Assembly (NCBI GenBank): GCA_033549065.1
Contig: JAWSUE010000006.1
Coordinates: forward strand, 1-64,000
Origin: Bacillota bacterium
GTDB taxonomy: Bacteria > Bacillota > Dethiobacteria > DTU022
DNA length: 64,000 nucleotides
Direction of reading: 5' to 3'
The notes under the pieces were generated by a model. The model did no database searches, was not told where the DNA came from, and saw nothing but the letters and a program-made list of their open reading frames with translations. How positions within the stretch are numbered: the first letter of the stretch is position 1; the number at the start of each line of letters is the position of its first letter. Both the position numbers and the translations under genes were made by a program. This document shows positions 18,536 to 46,770 of the stretch, in pieces.

Positions 18536-19492
18536 CTAAAGATACCCACTGCCGACCTTGATAGTGATGTTCGGCATCATTCCTTTTAAGAAGGATTGCG
18601 TTTCTTCAAGCTTGTTCTGATCAGGGGGGAGTATAGCGGAACACCTGTAATCACGTTCCAGGTAGCTGTATGTATCTGAACCCAGGCGGTGATAAGGAAG
18701 AATTTCAAGTCCCCGGATCCTGGACAGGTTATTTAAAAAAGAAGCTAATTCTATAAGGTTATCTTCTCCATCGTTAAATCCGGGGACAAGTGGCAGTCTG
18801 ATTACAATCGCCAAGGGAAATTCGCTCTGGTCAATTATGCGGATATTTTGAAGTATCTCCCTGTTGGTAATACCAGTCCACATTTCATGTTCCACCGGAT
18901 TCATATGTTTAATGTCAACATATATTGTATCAAGCCAGGGCAGCAGCTTTTCTATTTCTTTGTATTCAGCCTGCAAACTGGTTTCAATAGCGGTATTGAT
19001 TCCAATCATTTTACAGGCTTTAAGCAGCTTGGCAGTAAAATCGGCCTGTGCGAGAGGCTCACCACCGCTGACGGTTACACCTCCACCGGAGTAAAAGTAA
19101 AAAATCTCGTCCCTGCTGATTGTATCGACCAATTCTTCCACACTGCATTGTGTGCCATATTTCTTGATAGCATTTGAGGGGCAAACTTCAAAGCAGGTAA
19201 AACAGGTTCTGCATTTAGTTTTATCAGTAATAACGGATGATTTATCCTTAGCATAAACGATAGCCTTTTGCGGACATACGTCGATACATCGGCCGCAGGC
19301 TGTGCAGAGTTTTGCTGAATAGCCTTTCTCCGGTTCAAACTGCTGTGACTCAGGAGTGGAACACCAGGCGCAGTTCATCGGACAGCCTTTAAGAAAGACA
19401 ACGGTTCTCAGTCCCTGGCCGTCATGGAGGGAAGATCTTTCGACTCTCAGGAGTAAACCGGTTGTATTCTTGTTTAAAATCAACTGGTTCAC
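18536..19492 (-). CDS. Glycyl radical enzyme activating protein (radical SAM)
   Basis: 318 aa. The radical-SAM motif C-x3-C-x2-C is seen as CPMNCAWC near residue 38, followed by an inserted pair of [4Fe-4S] motifs, CTACGRCIDVCP and CRTCFTCFEVCP, as in activases of eliminase/decarboxylase GREs. SGGEPLAQ is the SAM-binding GGE motif. It installs the glycyl radical on the adjacent GRE, releasing 5'-deoxyadenosine. Its GTG start overlaps the GRE stop (GTGA), so synthesis is coupled. It ends 12 bp from the convergent dehydratase-like gene. Confidence 0.93.
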   Translation of the reverse strand: MNQLILNKNTTGLLLRVERSSLHDGQGLRTVVFLKGCPMNCAWCSTPESQQFEPEKGYSAKLCTACGRCIDVCPQKAIVYAKDKSSVITDKTKCRTCFTCFEVCPSNAIKKYGTQCSVEELVDTISRDEIFYFYSGGGVTVSGGEPLAQADFTAKLLKACKMIGINTAIETSLQAEYKEIEKLLPWLDTIYVDIKHMNPVEHEMWTGITNREILQNIRIIDQSEFPLAIVIRLPLVPGFNDGEDNLIELASFLNNLSRIRGLEILPYHRLGSDTYSYLERDYRCSAILPPDQNKLEETQSFLKGMMPNITIKVGSGYL

Positions 19493-21885
19493 CCCACAGA
19501 TATACCCTGTTGAACGGTCCGTCCGATTATCTCATCCTGAACATCTTTACCCAGCTCTGTGAAATAGGCAGTATAACCGGCTACTCGGACCAGTAAGCCT
19601 TTATATTTTTCCGGATTTTTCTGAGCCTTGATCAGAGTTTCCTGATCGACAACGTTAAACTGCACGTGGTAAACACCGAGGCTGCACAGGCTTTTAAGTA
19701 AGGCCATCAACTGGGCAATACCGTTTTCGGTTTTTAACATGGCCGGTTCAATTTTCATGTTTAGCAGAGTGCCCTGGACAAACCGACCGTGTGGAATATG
19801 GGCAACAGATTTCAGAATTGCCGTTGGCCCGTTAAAATCAGTTCCACCGCTGGGGCTTACTCCATCGGCCAGAGGCTGCCAGGCTTTGCGGCCCGATGGA
19901 AGGGCGCCAACCTCCAATCCAAAAGGAGTATTTCCGGATACCGGAAGGATACCGGGAGTCATTTTCCCGTATTTACTGCAATATTTTTCGATTTCATCAG
20001 CAATAAATGTAAAAATTTCACCTGCAATCCGGTCAACGTTATCATCATTGTTCCCAAACTTCGGAGCGGCGATGCAAAGTTTTCGAAGTTCTTCTTTCCC
20101 TTCATAATCCTTGTCAAGAGCATCGAGCAGTTCAGTCATTGTTACTGCTTCAGTGTCATAAACCAGATGCCTGACAGCCGCGATACTGTTAACAAGGTCA
20201 GCAACACCGATCAGAATTATTCCGTTTCCCGTATTATATTTGGCACCTCCCCGTGAGTAATCAAGGGCTTTATCGATACATTCCCTGAAGGTCAGCGATA
20301 AGGCGGGGACAGGCCGGTTCAACCCAATCTCATCAATTACATGGCTGCCGGCGACTACTGCCCGGATCGTATGCTGAATCTGTTTCTTGACAGCATTTAA
20401 GAATTGATCATAAGATTTAAAATTACGGGGATCTCCGGTCCTGCTTGAAGCGTAGAGGCCGCTTTTCCTGTTCTGGCCGTCGAGTAGGGCAAACTCAACT
20501 ATACTGCCTAAATTAATGTCAGCCAGAGCAGTAAATTGACGCAGCCTGCCCTCAAGATTGGTTTCAACACATCCGCAGGGGTTCCAGTTATAAGCTTCAG
20601 TGAGGGGTATACCCTTGTTCATCAGCATCATGATTCCAATGTCATCATTGTGGAAAGCGGGAAATCCCGTGCCCAGGCTGATCAATTCAACAATTTTTCG
20701 TAGAAATTTATTCGGGTTCTTGGCAACGCTATACCGGACCGAGAGGGAAGGCTGATAGAGCTGAACATCCATGGTGGCCTGCAGGATCATATATGATAAT
20801 TCATTGACGGCATCTTTTCCGGTATCATCTAACCCGCCAACACAGACATTCTGAAACATGGGATAACCTGCTGCAAACTCGGCAGTAACCGCGTCCTGAA
20901 ACAAACATGGCTCACTGAATTTAACCCAGAGGCAGTCGAGAAGCTCCTGAGCCACTTCCTTGGTCAGCCGGCCTGCTTCAAGATCTGCTTTATAAAATGG
21001 CCATAGATATTGGTCCATACGGCCGGGATTATAGCTCGCAGCATTCTGTTCCATGAAAAGCATGGTCTGGTAAAAATAGATCGATTGTAAGGCTTCCCGG
21101 AAGGTCCTGGCCGGATGCTCCGGTACCTGTCTGCATGTTTCGGCAATGAGTCTAAGTTCTTTTCTTCTCTCCGGATTTTCTTCATTAACAGCCAATTTAT
21201 CTGCTTCATCTGCATAGCGATTGGCCATCTTGATAATTCCTTCAGCAACTATTAACAGTGCCTGAAGGTAATAATCCTTTTCATATTCACCCGGATTTGT
21301 AATGTCGAGCTTTGAACGGGCTTCTTCAATATAATTAATGATGCCGGTAATGCCCTCGTTGATCAGCCAGGTATATCCAGCTGTTGTTTCACCCCAGCCG
21401 CGAACAGCCTTACGATCAATATATATAACACCACAATCGCGTAATATCCTGGTATCTTCGGGAATCTGAGCCTGCCATTCTTCATAATTTGATCGCCCTT
21501 TCCAGTATGGACGAACCTCATCTTCAAAGATTTTACGATCCTCCGGCGGTAGAAAAAAAGGATCATACTGCCTGGAATTAATTGATTCAAGTTCTTTGTC
21601 GAGAACTGACCAGCAGGAATCGGCACAAAGTATGCCGGCCCTGATCTTGCTGCCTGAACAGCCGACGATTAATTCGTCATCCCAGATCTTTATAGTTTTC
21701 TTCAGACACTGGTTGCGGAAGGCTTTAGCTTTTTTAACTACCAGTGGTTCACCTTCAGCATCGATAAAACCCTCTGTTAGAAGGCGGGCATTTTCAAGGT
21801 CCATTTCCGGTTTTGTTTCGAGCACCCGTTTTTTCAAACGTGTAACTCGTTCAAAATAAGCAGGTTTTTGAACGGTCTCGGGCAT
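19489..21885 (-). CDS. Glycyl radical enzyme of uncertain substrate (HypD-like by context)
   Basis: 798 aa. The C-terminal radical loop is RVAGYTAYF (Gly770); the thiyl-radical loop is NPCGCVETN with Cys439 and Glu441. Length and spacing fit trans-4-hydroxy-L-proline dehydratase (HypD, whose counterparts I recall as Cys434, Glu436, Gly765). However, by-eye comparison from memory does not show the HypD His of PGHT (here AGYTW), the Asp before PGR (here ASYNPGR) or the Tyr 16 residues after the Cys (here Ala455). It is therefore a GRE of the C-x-E class whose substrate is open; the surrounding genes suggest a hydroxyproline or related imino acid. The start is ATG 21885 behind GGGAGGGG; the upstream in-frame ATG 21936 lacks a ribosome site. 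Confidence 0.85.
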   Translation of the reverse strand: MPETVQKPAYFERVTRLKKRVLETKPEMDLENARLLTEGFIDAEGEPLVVKKAKAFRNQCLKKTIKIWDDELIVGCSGSKIRAGILCADSCWSVLDKELESINSRQYDPFFLPPEDRKIFEDEVRPYWKGRSNYEEWQAQIPEDTRILRDCGVIYIDRKAVRGWGETTAGYTWLINEGITGIINYIEEARSKLDITNPGEYEKDYYLQALLIVAEGIIKMANRYADEADKLAVNEENPERRKELRLIAETCRQVPEHPARTFREALQSIYFYQTMLFMEQNAASYNPGRMDQYLWPFYKADLEAGRLTKEVAQELLDCLWVKFSEPCLFQDAVTAEFAAGYPMFQNVCVGGLDDTGKDAVNELSYMILQATMDVQLYQPSLSVRYSVAKNPNKFLRKIVELISLGTGFPAFHNDDIGIMMLMNKGIPLTEAYNWNPCGCVETNLEGRLRQFTALADINLGSIVEFALLDGQNRKSGLYASSRTGDPRNFKSYDQFLNAVKKQIQHTIRAVVAGSHVIDEIGLNRPVPALSLTFRECIDKALDYSRGGAKYNTGNGIILIGVADLVNSIAAVRHLVYDTEAVTMTELLDALDKDYEGKEELRKLCIAAPKFGNNDDNVDRIAGEIFTFIADEIEKYCSKYGKMTPGILPVSGNTPFGLEVGALPSGRKAWQPLADGVSPSGGTDFNGPTAILKSVAHIPHGRFVQGTLLNMKIEPAMLKTENGIAQLMALLKSLCSLGVYHVQFNVVDQETLIKAQKNPEKYKGLLVRVAGYTAYFTELGKDVQDEIIGRTVQQGISVG

Positions 21886-21922
21886 AGCGACCCCTCCCAG
21901 ATGGAGACAAATTAATGCATAT

Positions 21923-21931
21923 ATTATATCA
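21923..21931 (-). promoter_or_regulatory. Extended -10 promoter of the glycyl radical enzyme operon
   Basis: On the minus strand TGATATAAT (TGn + TATAAT) lies about 40 nt before the GRE ATG. A perfect palindrome GATAGCTATC sits just upstream of it and could be an operator. Confidence 0.55.
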
Positions 21932-21974
21932 TACACGATAGCTATCTATTATCTCAACTTATCTACAGGATTCG

Positions 21975-22091: not shown

Positions 22092-22101
22092 CTGTAAATT
22101 G

Positions 22102-22140
22102 TGAGATGCCGCATACAACAAGTGGCATCTCATTTAAATT
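22102..22140 (+). terminator. Terminator after tRNA-Trp
   Basis: A 9-bp stem TGAGATGCC/GGCATCTCA (22102-22110, 22124-22132) is followed by TTTAAATTTATTT. Confidence 0.7.
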
Positions 22141-22175
22141 TATTTCTACAAAAAATAAATTATGAGGTGATAATC

Positions 22176-23369
22176 ATGCCGTCAACAAGCGAGATTTTAA
22201 AAGTTACTGAACAGTACAGCGCTCGCAATTATCTTCCTTTACCGGTTGTATTGACAAAAGGGAAGGGAGTCTGGGTTGAAGATCCCGAGGGCAATCGTTA
22301 CATGGATATGCTCAGCGCCTATTCAGCAATGAATTTCGGACATTGTCATCCGAAAATTATCAGCGCATTAAAAGAACAGGCTGACCGAATAACGGTTACT
22401 TCCAGAGCTTTTCACAATGACCACCTCGGTACATTTTGCCGGATGCTTTCTGAACTGACCAGCAAGAAAATGGTTTTACCGATGAATACGGGTGCAGAAG
22501 CGGTGGAAACTGCAATTAAAGCGGTCAGGCGCTGGGCTTACAGGATCAAGAAGGTCGCGCCCGACAAGGCAGAGATTATTACATGCAGAGGCAATTTTCA
22601 CGGACGGACAACTACAATTGTATCTTTCAGTTCCGATGAAGCTTACAAGGCTGATTTCGGACCTTTTTCTCCCGGTTTTAAAATTATTGAATACGGCAGT
22701 ATTGATGCGTTGAAGGCCGCAATTAACAATAATACCTGCGCTTTTCTTGTTGAGCCGGTTCAGGGTGAAGCGGGGATAATCATTCCTCCTGAAGGCTACC
22801 TGGAAGAGGCATATAAGCTATGTAAAGATAATAATGTTCTTTTTGTTGCCGATGAAATTCAGACCGGTTTTGGCAGAACGGGAAAAATGTTTGCCTGTGA
22901 CTGGGAAAAAGTGATCCCCGATGTTTACATTCTCGGCAAAGCGCTTGGAGGAGGAGTGCTGCCGATTTCTGCGGTTACAGCCGACGAAGAGATTCTTGGC
23001 GTTTTTGAACCTGGCTCACATGGTTCTACTTTCGGCGGAAACCCACTGGCCTGTGCAGTTTCAATCAGAGCACTGCAGGTGATGAAAGAAGAAAAACTTG
23101 TTGAAAATTCAGCTGATCTCGGGAAATACTTCCTCAGCAAACTGAAAGATATTGCTAACCCGGTTGTCATGGATATTAGAGGAAAGGGCTTATTTGTGGG
23201 GGTAGAATTAACCGAAAAAGCACGACCCTACTGTGAAGAACTGATGAAGATGGGAATCCTGGCCAAGGAAACACATGACAATGTTATTCGGTTTGCCCCA
23301 CCGTTGATTATAGATAAAAAAGATCTTGACTGGGCAATCGATGCGATTCATAAGCTTTTTGCCAGTTAA
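22176..23369 (+). CDS. rocD: Ornithine aminotransferase
   Basis: 397-aa class III PLP aminotransferase converting ornithine and 2-oxoglutarate to glutamate-5-semialdehyde (which cyclises to pyrroline-5-carboxylate) and glutamate. Features: [18 protein letters not shown] (phosphate-binding region), the [10 protein letters not shown] segment, [18 protein letters not shown] lysine in [15 protein letters not shown], and [16 protein letters not shown]. These strings match RocD/OAT rather than acetylornithine aminotransferase. The start is ATG 22176 with GAGGTGA 5 nt upstream; the longer frame would begin inside the tRNA-Trp terminator. It feeds the P5C pool shared with proC. Confidence 0.93.
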
Positions 23370-23404: not shown

Positions 23405-23433
23405 TTGACAAGTCTGATTAATTGATCCATAAT
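23405..23433 (+). promoter_or_regulatory. Sigma-A promoter of the structured RNA
   Basis: TTGACA (23405-23410), 17-nt spacer, CATAAT (23428-23433). The expected start is about 23440, the first paired bases of the RNA described next. Confidence 0.75.
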
Positions 23434-23439
23434 GATCTT

Positions 23440-23731
23440 GCCAGGTTCCGAGAGACTGGACAGCAAACCAGATCCGGAGAAGAGGATAGATTCAGTGGAA
23501 GAAGGTAAAACTGATTCTGTTGAAACAATTCCTCCGATGCGGGTCGCTGAAAGAACCGGTAACTGAAAGGTCGCAAGACCGGGATTTGCCGGAGATCGCA
23601 GCACGGAAGGTTAGTAGCGAACCGGAGGTTGAGGGAAGGCCATCCAGAGGTGGTGGCGGAAGCTCAGTTGTGGATGGTTTCGCGAAGAATTTCCGGTGGC
23701 AAGTTGAAAGGCCTGTTGAACCTGGCATTTT
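23440..23731 (+). ncRNA. Predicted structured RNA of about 290 nt, family not recognised
   Basis: No protein is supported here. The 5' end (23439-23448) pairs perfectly over 10 bp with 23718-23727, after which come four T residues. Inside are a GGTC-GCAA-GACC hairpin nested in a CCGGTAA/TTGCCGG stem, an AGATTCAGT/ACTGATTCT hairpin, CTGG/CCAG, and CCATCC/GGATGG. It starts at a good promoter. It lacks the signatures I know for SRP RNA, tmRNA, RNase P, 6S RNA, T-box or common riboswitches. It could be a free-standing small RNA or the leader of the nuoEF operon: the palindrome at 23737-23757 followed by TATAATTTTTTT could act as its terminator. Confidence 0.6.
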
Positions 23732-23733
23732 CA

Positions 23734-23763
23734 TTGACATTGACTTTTAGTCAATGTTATAAT
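23734..23763 (+). promoter_or_regulatory. Promoter with palindromic operator for the NuoEF operon; leaderless start
   Basis: TTGACA (23734-23739), 18-nt spacer, TATAAT (23758-23763). A perfect palindrome with 9-bp arms ACATTGACT/AGTCAATGT and a TTT centre (23737-23757) overlaps the -35 and fills the spacer, as an operator would. The -10 ends 7 nt before the A of ATG 23770, so transcription should begin at the start codon. The region before the ATG is only T residues, with no Shine-Dalgarno. Confidence 0.7.
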
Positions 23764-23769
23764 TTTTTT

Positions 23770-26142
23770 ATGGAAAAAGAAAAATCAATATTTGATGAAA
23801 CTATCAGTAAACACAACCACGACATTTCCAACCTGATAATGATGCTGCAGGATATTCAATCCGCTACAGGTTACATATCTTCGAATTCAGTGGAGTATCT
23901 CTCAAGGAAACTCAATATACCGGAAGCACAGATTTATTCAGTTGCTACTTTTTATAAATCATTTTCGTTACGTCCAAAGGGAAAACATCGAGTTGATATT
24001 TGCGAAGGCACCGCCTGCCATATACGCGGTGCTTCTGTTTTGATGAGCAGAGCTTCTGACGAACTTGGCATCAAGGCCGGAGAGACAACAGCAGATGGAG
24101 AGTTTTCTTTGAATTCGGTTCATTGTGTAGGTGCCTGCGCCATGGGACCGGTTGTTGTAATCGACGGTAAATATCATGGCAGCGTCACCACTTCGACTCT
24201 ATCCAAAGAGCTGCGAAAAAGCAAGACGGCTGCAGATGGAGAGTTGGAAAGCACTGCTGTCGAAGAAGTTCCGGATATTGGTTTGGAAAAAATCAACTCT
24301 CCTCAAAACTTTAAAACTTTGCAGGAATTAGCCAGAAGCATGAACGCTTTGAAAGAAAAACGAGTTCTGGTTTGTGCCGGTACCGGATGTATTGCCAAGG
24401 GCAGCCTGGAGGTTGCCGGCTCATTTAAAGAAGCTCTGGGAGAGTTAAATCTTGAAATCCCTGTTTCTTTAGAGATGAAAACAGTAGGTTGCCAGGGTTT
24501 TTGCGAAAAAGGGCCCCTGGTAATCATAATACCTGATGAAGTCTTTTATTCCGGTGTTAAACCCGGAGATGTTAAAGAAATAGTTAATGAAACCTTATTA
24601 AACAACCGCTATGTTGAGAAACTTCTCTATCATGAACCGAACAGCGGGACGATTATCTCAAGGTATGAAGAAATTCCTTTTTTCGCGGGACAACACCGCA
24701 TCGCCTTAAGAAATGTAGGTACAATTAACCCCTTAAACATTTACGATTACCTGGCCCGGGGTGGCTACAGTGCGCTGTTGAATGCTCTTTATTTTATGAA
24801 TTCTAATGAAATTATCACTGAAGTTGAAAACTCAGGTTTGAGAGGACGGGGAGGAGGAGGCTTTTCCACTGGAAAGAAGTGGAGAACCACGGCAAAAATA
24901 GAATCGCCGGTTAGATATGTTATCTGTAACGGTGATGAAGGTGACCCCGGTGCTTTCATGGACCGCAGCATAATGGAAGGCGACCCGCATTCCGTAATTG
25001 AGGGTATGGTTATCTGCGCTTACGCTGTAGGCTCTAATCATGGCTATATATATGTTAGGGAAGAATACCCACGGGCCCTGAAACACCTTGAAGAAGCAAT
25101 TGACCAGGCCCGTAGAGCAGGTTTTCTCGGCAACAACATTTGCGGCACCGATTTTTCCTTTGATATTCGAATCAACAGGGGAACAGGCGCTTTTGTCTGT
25201 GGTGAATCGACTGCCCTGATGCAATCGGTTGAGGGCAAAGTAGGCGAGCCGCGAGCTAAGTATATCCGCTCTGCAGAACGAGGGTTGTATGATCAACCAA
25301 CGGTTTTAAACAATGTTGAAACATTTGTTAATATACCGCCAATAATTGAAAACGGCGCTGCCTGGTTTGCTTCGACCGGTACTGAAAAAAGCCCTGGAAC
25401 AAAAGTATTTTCAGTTGTCGGTAAAGTTAAGAACACCGGATTGGTCGAGGTTCCCATGGGCATGACGCTCCGTTCAATAATTTATGATGTTTGCGGCGGA
25501 ATACTTAATAACAAAAAATTTAAAGCAGTTCAAACCGGAGGGCCCTCAGGTGGGTGTTTACCTGAAAGCAAACTGGATCTGCCTGTAGATTTTGATACCC
25601 TCACCCGGGAAGGTTCAATGATGGGATCTGGCGGTATGATCGTAATGGATGAAGATACATGCATGGTTGATGTTGCCCGTTACTTTACCGATTTCTTGAA
25701 CCAGGAATCCTGCGGTAAATGTTCGGCCTGCCGTCTCGGTATTTCGAACCTTCATTCTATCCTTGACAGGATATGCCGCGGTGAAGGAGTAGCAGACGAT
25801 ATTGAACGGATAGAAAAGCTGCTTTCGGTTCTTGAACTGGGCTCACTATGTGGGTTGGGTAAATCGGCTCCGAATCCGGTTAGAAGTACCCTGACTCATT
25901 TTAAAAATGAATATATGGCGCATATTATAGAAAAACGCTGCCCTGCCGGTGTCTGCCGCGCCTTAATCAGTTATGAGATTAACGATTTATGCACTGGCTG
26001 CCGTCGCTGTGCCCGTAATTGCCCGCAAAATGCTATCAGCGGAGAAAAAAATGAACGTCATTATATTGATCAGGAACTATGCAACCGCTGCGGACTCTGT
26101 CTGGCAACCTGTAATTTTGAAGCTGTTTTCGTTAAAAAATAG
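23770..26142 (+). CDS. NuoE-NuoF fusion: NADH-binding flavo-iron-sulfur subunit
   Basis: 790 aa. Residues 1-150 are NuoE-like, with [2Fe-2S] cysteines in CEGTAC (78) and CVGAC (about 119). A second thioredoxin-like [2Fe-2S] domain follows (VCAGTGC near 201, GCQGFC near 241). Then comes NuoF: FMN/NADH loop GLRGRGGGGFSTGKKW near 355, NGDEGDPGAFMDRS, and [4Fe-4S] motif ESCGKCSACRLG near 646. The tail carries two ferredoxin motifs (CTGCRRCARNCP, CNRCGLCLATC). The architecture is that of HydB/NfnB-like modules of bifurcating enzymes with NuoE attached. It would exchange electrons between NAD(H) and iron-sulfur partners. The start is ATG 23770; the longer frame's TTG 23629 abuts its only purine-rich site and lies inside the RNA. 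Confidence 0.88.
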   Translation: MEKEKSIFDETISKHNHDISNLIMMLQDIQSATGYISSNSVEYLSRKLNIPEAQIYSVATFYKSFSLRPKGKHRVDICEGTACHIRGASVLMSRASDELGIKAGETTADGEFSLNSVHCVGACAMGPVVVIDGKYHGSVTTSTLSKELRKSKTAADGELESTAVEEVPDIGLEKINSPQNFKTLQELARSMNALKEKRVLVCAGTGCIAKGSLEVAGSFKEALGELNLEIPVSLEMKTVGCQGFCEKGPLVIIIPDEVFYSGVKPGDVKEIVNETLLNNRYVEKLLYHEPNSGTIISRYEEIPFFAGQHRIALRNVGTINPLNIYDYLARGGYSALLNALYFMNSNEIITEVENSGLRGRGGGGFSTGKKWRTTAKIESPVRYVICNGDEGDPGAFMDRSIMEGDPHSVIEGMVICAYAVGSNHGYIYVREEYPRALKHLEEAIDQARRAGFLGNNICGTDFSFDIRINRGTGAFVCGESTALMQSVEGKVGEPRAKYIRSAERGLYDQPTVLNNVETFVNIPPIIENGAAWFASTGTEKSPGTKVFSVVGKVKNTGLVEVPMGMTLRSIIYDVCGGILNNKKFKAVQTGGPSGGCLPESKLDLPVDFDTLTREGSMMGSGGMIVMDEDTCMVDVARYFTDFLNQESCGKCSACRLGISNLHSILDRICRGEGVADDIERIEKLLSVLELGSLCGLGKSAPNPVRSTLTHFKNEYMAHIIEKRCPAGVCRALISYEINDLCTGCRRCARNCPQNAISGEKNERHYIDQELCNRCGLCLATCNFEAVFVKK

Positions 26143-46493: not shown

Positions 46494-46770
46494 TAAAAAA
46501 ACTTCCGTCAAAGAGACGAAAGTATTCTTCGTGGTACCACTCTTCTTGGCGGCATAACAACTACCACCCACTCTTTAAAGTAACGGAAGTCTCCGGCCAG
46601 GCCTAATCACGAATGTTTATGCAAATATTTTTATCCGGTTTCGGTTGGCAGCTAACGGAGGAGTTTCGCCGTTGTCTTCATGCCGTTTTTCACCTTATTA
46701 CGGCTCTCTGAAATGAATACTCCGGTTACTGGTTCCGATCATCGCTTTTTAACACTATTTAACTTTTAGA
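46494..46770 (-). promoter_or_regulatory. T-box leader of leuA (leucine)
   Basis: On the minus strand the T-box antiterminator sequence GAGTGGTACCACGAAG (complement of about 46529-46544) precedes an intrinsic terminator ACTTTCGTC/GACGGAAGT (46501-46523) followed by seven T residues. Upstream is stem I with an AGAGAGCC loop and, near 46658-46666, GAAACTCCTCC, where a CTC leucine codon sits at the expected specifier position. Uncharged tRNA-Leu should stabilise the antiterminator and switch leuA on. Confidence 0.92.

Follow-up and report, generated by a model that had tools for sequence, protein, structure and literature searches.

The window analysed here, a stretch of 64,000 nucleotides from the genome of an anaerobic bacterium, carries at 23440-23726 on the forward strand, outside protein genes, a structured RNA of about 287 nt, which we interpret as belonging to type A of a new bacterial superfamily of stand-alone RNAs that would act in trans. 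The members would be transcribed singly from sigma-A-type promoters of their own, or from one shared promoter in tandem pairs, and would all fold into branched molecules with the same closing stem at their ends, P1. That the RNA class itself is real we consider close to certain. Our preferred explanation, to which we assign a probability of roughly 0.4, is that its members are stand-alone noncoding RNAs acting in trans whose terminal stem would dock a common partner, this partner plausibly coming from a gene cassette with hpt2, a hypoxanthine phosphoribosyltransferase gene. The features of the window on which the argument draws are:

22101-23369 (+), rocD, ornithine aminotransferase, given as the longest open reading frame (NCBIfam NF003145, 685 bits); the true start is probably further in
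23405-23433 (+), promoter with TTGACA (23405-23410), a 17-nt spacer and CATAAT (23428-23433), matching the consensus at 11 of 12 positions, its layout conserved in other copies
23440-23726 (+), type A structured RNA, with a fold z of -5.9, a covarying consensus of 85 pairs and 255.9 bits against covariance model R1, which was built with the window copy included
23440-23457 (+), 5' strand of terminal stem P1, with the superfamily-invariant CCGAGAG at 23448-23454
23462-23470 (+), 5' strand of helix P2, the helix at the base of a four-way junction; its partner lies at 23697-23705
23471-23545 (+), arm I of the four-way junction, in whose outer helix 6 of 7 pairs are changed on both sides
23546-23602 (+), arm II of the four-way junction, its tip in the window being GGUC-GCAA-GACC (23569-23580)
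23604-23695 (+), arm III, a long segmented hairpin with a conserved GCCAUCC/GGUGGU stem
23710-23726 (+), 3' strand of terminal stem P1, with CUGUUG at 23713-23718
23734-23763 (+), promoter of the NuoE/NuoF-like gene, TTGACA-18-TATAAT, 12 of 12 positions, overlapping an 11-bp palindrome (23735-23759)
23770-26142 (+), NuoE/NuoF-like fused NADH-dehydrogenase subunit (Pfam 2Fe-2S_thioredx, Complex1_51K, NADH_4Fe-4S), the first gene of the downstream operon

The CATAAT box ends 6 nt upstream of the RNA, with an expected start near 23440, and a TTGACA/(C)AATAAT layout at the same distance is conserved in other superfamily copies of all types. The two ends of the RNA pair with each other, GCCAGGUUC (23440-23448) with GAACCUGGC (23718-23726), in nine perfect pairs that continue inward with mismatches; a GNRA loop, GCAA, lies at 23573-23576. 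The folding energy obtained with RNAfold was -114.9 kcal/mol as against a mean of -86.4 for shuffled sequences, none of the 200 shuffles being as good. Among the covariance models of Rfam 15 no family reached its gathering score on the window RNA, and the sole match at E ≤ 10 was a meaningless one to a plant miRNA. No reading frame is conserved among the relatives, whose stretches without a stop are between 20 and 98 codons long, and a protein-coding reading was dropped on that account. An own promoter—judged by its consensus and conservation only—together with a compensatory fold and the lack of a conserved frame points to a stand-alone structured noncoding RNA gene as far as the sequence can tell, whose product we infer to be made as a discrete transcript. 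The initial annotation had placed a sigma-A-type promoter so that transcription starts at the 5' arm of the stem, had described internal stems with a GCAA tetraloop, and had recognised neither an open frame nor a known family, with all of which these results agree; its 10-bp end-to-end stem is present, though with nine perfect pairs; and its discrete RNA gene of about 290 nt with a promoter of its own stands by the sequence evidence, except that the gene is not a lone one but one subtype of a multi-copy superfamily.

Covariation among relatives, by which the initial annotation had proposed to check the fold, is present. RNAalifold, when applied to 22 type A sequences, returned 52 pairs, 22 of which had at least one double-sided change, and a refined alignment of 16 type A sequences led to a four-way junction set on the terminal stem, with 85 pairs and 92% of the cells paired. 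Changes on both sides were found in 40 of these 85 pairs versus 20.2 in shuffles, which do not keep relatedness, and in 500 shuffles none reached any of the five measures. When the partner was slid by one column the pairing fell from 92% to 43-49%, a control somewhat favourable to the structure, since this was derived from the same alignment; the counts of double-sided change are the measure least affected by such control biases. Types B and C (the C8, C4 and C22 copies, for whose coordinates see below) have a consensus of their own with 64 pairs, 34 of them with double-sided changes.

Regarding the neighbourhood, rocD immediately precedes the type A RNA in 15 of 22 loci, its end being for the most part 56-78 nt away, and the gene that follows the RNA is the NuoE/NuoF-like subunit in ten and ProC in nine. 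The position in the window, on the same strand as the NuoE/NuoF-like gene and upstream of it, would suit a cis-acting leader of the dehydrogenase operon, either an attenuator or a riboswitch-like element, and regulation of the terminator-like hairpin at 23735-23759 is conceivable. A leader, however, would hold a fixed place upstream of one gene family, and here it is rocD that stays constant while the downstream gene changes; because, in addition, the NuoE/NuoF-like gene has its own perfect promoter, a leader function is very improbable and a separate RNA is favoured, and paralogous copies that are convergent to, or opposite, their neighbours speak against a leader as well. The initial annotation had held a leader and a co-regulated small RNA equally possible, a parity that these observations do not support. 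As to the operon itself, the TATAAT of its first gene stands 6 nt before the ATG with no visible Shine-Dalgarno sequence (window 23758-23772), for which reason its mRNA may be leaderless. The palindrome that overlaps this promoter, AACATTGAC-TAAAA-GTCAATGTT (other strand), has counterparts in relatives.

Every copy in the superfamily shares P1, in which CCGAGAG stands opposite CUGUUGG—a core helix that contains a single G-U pair and a single G-G mismatch—flanked by covarying pairs. For an unbiased assessment we took a set defined by CCGAGAG, by CUGUUGG 120-420 nt downstream and by an upstream TTGAC box, irrespective of pairing. All seven outer pairs form in 76 of the 78 unique RNAs so chosen, and the 30 distinct arm combinations make a mean of 6.9 out of 7 pairs, whereas in 2000 permutations the mean was 5.9 and the maximum 6.4; covarying arms are, for instance, CCAGGUU/AACCUGG, CCAGAUU/AAUCUGG, ACAAGUC/GACUUGU and AAAGGUC/GACCUUU. 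The core is nearly unchanging in a separate set chosen with a pairing threshold, an invariance that is partly due to selection because the motifs were search criteria; in type C copies, found by other searches, it can vary a little. The interiors are unrelated between types and the lengths range from 172 to 410 nt; since the core stayed constant as the remainder of the molecule changed, we regard it as a putative docking site. The window copy has the 5' motif of the superfamily and the outer pairs, but in its 3' motif, which reads CUGUUG at 23713-23718, one G is missing from the nearly invariant CUGUUGG, which may point to a modified or decaying copy, or else to an error of the draft assembly at that place. 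In many copies of types A, B, C and E (e.g., L002, L102) a conserved TTATGTACA-like sequence occurs a few bases past P1, outside the predicted fold.

The genome to which the window belongs has four diverged copies, identified by search only, those besides the window being G000:C8:53525-53842, C4:37835-38150 and C22:7763-8082; a pattern match with 3 mismatches gave mostly noise beyond these true copies. Of 150 related genomes, 23, all members of the same family, gave a match to the window RNA in a DNA search, the identity being 72-76% for matches that span its whole length. A scan for both ends with their spacing, taking one genome per species, returned 51 records, most of them 'Syntrophomonadaceae' bacterium or 'Dethiobacter sp.' MAGs, and the class is presumably Dethiobacteria. 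Model R1 for type A had matches in 52 of the class's 98 genomes, these being of families f1, f5, f6, f7 and f8, which number rose to 59 for the superfamily once the evidence from P1 and the 3' end was added. Furthermore, a pattern search in 398 genomes of the phylum added G129 (f40) and a search around G129 added G181 (f54), so that the superfamily is present in two further families of the phylum. No Rfam 15 family matched the other types tested, no description of the superfamily was found in the open full texts searched, and neither hpt nor hypoxanthine was mentioned in the RNA-discovery papers that were text-searched; as judged from Rfam 15 and these open texts, the superfamily was previously uncatalogued.

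In G129 and in G093 (f7) two RNAs, of about 256 and 172-179 nt, lie 5 nt apart behind one visible promoter. Complete tandems of this kind, 5 nt apart with one promoter, are seen at L229 (1076-1515) and L231 (7757-8191), and the second RNA (172-179 nt, fold z -5.6) may be a minimal form. At L102, L124, L137 and L095 types D (about 280 nt) and E (about 360 nt) flank a kinase-like/hpt2 gene pair or lie nearby. At L300, L304, L308 and L278 contigs of several draft genomes end inside RNAs beside hpt2; copy numbers in MAGs are underestimates because draft contigs end inside the copies.

Several copies per genome, tandems in some families and contigs that often end inside copies would also fit repeated or mobile DNA, or else an artefact, in place of a functional RNA. 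The compensatory changes and the promoters and synteny conserved over the whole class leave this explanation with hardly any probability, as do the great divergence of the paralogues, which are not identical repeats, and their absence from viral contigs; nor was a transposase-like gene noticed beside the copies examined. The artefact reading in particular is refuted by the permutation of the P1 outer pairs and by the covariation of type A. A phage element in the manner of GOLLD, or a plasmid element, was likewise rejected: plasmids gave no match to the RNA, viral contigs gave 0 matches with the strict pattern, and the 35 matches obtained there with a looser pattern lacked the pairing flanks and the promoter and were at about chance level.

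Promoters of their own and several paralogues in each genome would be expected also of base-pairing small RNAs acting in trans, or of sponges for a regulatory protein as in 6S or CsrB, with paralogue-specific targets and with P1 as a shared element for stability or processing; unpaired purine-rich segments and the U-rich tract that follows P1 in many copies fit such RNAs. The strong folding and the scarcity of a conserved single-stranded seed render them improbable here. Like 6S RNA, the superfamily members stand alone, would act in trans and are closed by a long stem between their ends; the branched four-way fold is where they differ. The only 6S (RF00013) match of the genome, G000:C2:39435-39614 at 97.8 bits, is an ordinary 6S RNA and none of the four copies, so that a replacement of 6S is ruled out.

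The most widespread address of the superfamily is a locus other than that of the window. In families f5, f6, f7, f8, f40 and f54, and likewise for the type B copies of f1, the RNA and a hypoxanthine phosphoribosyltransferase gene converge, the 3' end of the RNA lying from 2 to a few hundred bases, usually within tens, past the stop codon. This gene, hpt2, is a second paralogue distinct from the ordinary hpt: within the class the hpt2 products score at least 214.7 bits versus at most 196.5 for the ordinary ones. The widespread hpt2-linked copy is probably the ancestral one. In a sample of the phylum the RNA was found just past the stop at 10 of 10 hpt2 loci and at 0 of 20 ordinary hpt loci. Among the 98 class genomes 51 had both RNA and hpt2, 4 hpt2 only, 8 the RNA only and 35 neither (Fisher p = 2e-14), the respective counts for the good genomes being 33, 2, 3 and 20 (p = 2e-10). 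Inspection of the flanks of hpt2 had contributed 7 of the 51, a bias towards the association; when matches of the covariance model are counted by themselves the figures become 44, 11, 8 and 35 (p = 1e-9). All of these p-values ignore phylogeny. A stronger argument for the link than these p-values comes from apparent transfer. Both hpt2 genes found in G129 cluster with G093, a member of f7 (support 98/93), the two genomes having the same tandem of two RNAs, and the hpt2 of G181 falls inside the f7 clade (99/98), while in the relatives of G129 and G181 that were searched (G170 and G205; G143 and G246) only ordinary hpt and no RNA were detected. RNA and hpt2 appear to have been transferred together between families.

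Upstream of hpt2 lies a gene for a Cytidylate_kin2 protein with a tail of about 100 residues, SPDFYLPDQDLFIELTTQK, that resembles PD-(D/E)XK nucleases. The assignment of the tail as nuclease-like is a weak one, based on the motif SPDFYLPDQDLFIELT and on a best sequence match, to T7 endonuclease I, of E = 0.04; the predicted structure of the protein is poor, with a mean pLDDT of 62.6 overall and values below 50 over much of the tail. Pairs of this kinase/nuclease-like gene with hpt that have no detected RNA occur at L260, L266 and L269. Net charge was considered as a hint of RNA binding by Hpt2 and was dropped, Hpt2 being no more basic than ordinary Hpt.

On our preferred reading P1 would dock a common protein, for which the product of the kinase/nuclease-like and hpt2 cassette is the best candidate, and each copy would owe a target or state of its own to its variable interior; the copy linked to amino acids or redox would be type A, with its rocD and proC-type neighbours. 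PyrR is a phosphoribosyltransferase-fold protein that binds RNA, and Hpt2, which has the same fold, could bind RNA in a similar way, coupling it to the status of PRPP, purines or (p)ppGpp. Because PyrR does so and because HPRT is a target of (p)ppGpp, a nucleotide- or stress-sensing ribonucleoprotein is a reasonable, if unproven, model by analogy. The analogy, which is a possible one only, is that of a phosphoribosyltransferase-fold protein gene adjoining an RNA, and what we have in the present instance is genomic linkage with hpt2. The sites bound by PyrR, short hairpins in the leaders of pyr operons, have the consensus ARUCCNGNGAGGYU, to which we take the superfamily sequence UUCCGAGAGRC to bear a resemblance; the superfamily motif, unlike those hairpins, is part of a long-range helix, and the Rfam PyrR model had no match to the window RNA at E ≤ 10. 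The fullest version of such a model is, as a whole, less likely than not: a ribonucleoprotein in which Hpt2 and its kinase/nuclease-like partner bind the invariant P1, the interiors are interchangeable, nucleotide or alarmone status is passed to several RNA effectors, and the cassette moves as a unit between families. If Hpt2 does bind P1, purine-salvage enzymes would join PyrR as phosphoribosyltransferases that control RNA. The enzyme HPRT being a known target of (p)ppGpp (PMC6783271), binding would then also provide a direct route from a stress signal to RNA.

Three good genomes, G004, G007 and G076, carry the RNA with no detected hpt2, for which reason the partner may be some other protein, or none, and hpt2 and the RNA could be linked by shared descent only. 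These genomes, the dispersed copies far from hpt2, and the large size and strong folding of the RNA within AT-rich intergenic DNA would all fit a structured RNA without a protein partner from the cassette, e.g., an RNA-only assembly or scaffold in the manner of OLE, ROOL, GOLLD or raiA, for which hpt2 would be an ancestral address and nothing else. We take this to be a serious contender, though one short of even odds: a nearly invariant P1 core on unrelated interiors argues for recognition at P1, and the RNA and hpt2 seem to have moved jointly between families. By kind the superfamily does belong with the orphan structured RNAs (raiA/ModT, OLE, ROOL and GOLLD), among which it stands out by a constant stem on variable bodies and by the hpt2 cassette. 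The raiA motif, or ModT, is a conserved structured RNA that stands alone, is at most a few hundred nt long and is widespread in Bacillota (PMC11706538), in which respects the superfamily resembles it; no superfamily type tested matched it by covariance model, and the shared terminal stem, unrelated interiors, several paralogues per genome and the hpt2 cassette are points of difference. OLE, ROOL and GOLLD are large multi-branched bacterial RNAs (PMC12286853); the superfamily is similarly large and branched, but is smaller than these, is defined by P1 with a variable interior, has no Rfam match, and gave no match above chance in viral contigs. Rarely does a new class of large structured RNA come to light in bacteria, and what such RNAs do belongs to the oldest open questions of RNA biology; the design found here, one conserved stem on many unrelated RNA bodies, is unusual, and the class, unlike most orphan RNAs, has a specific candidate genetic partner, the hpt2 cassette, with which it seemingly co-travels between families.

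Elsewhere in the window, a glycyl-radical enzyme and its activase (18536-21936, reverse strand) are divergent from rocD, the enzyme being of the PFL2-3/dehydratase family and below the cut-offs of every specific equivalog, and a T-box leader was detected with 122 bits at 46509-46751, also on the reverse strand.
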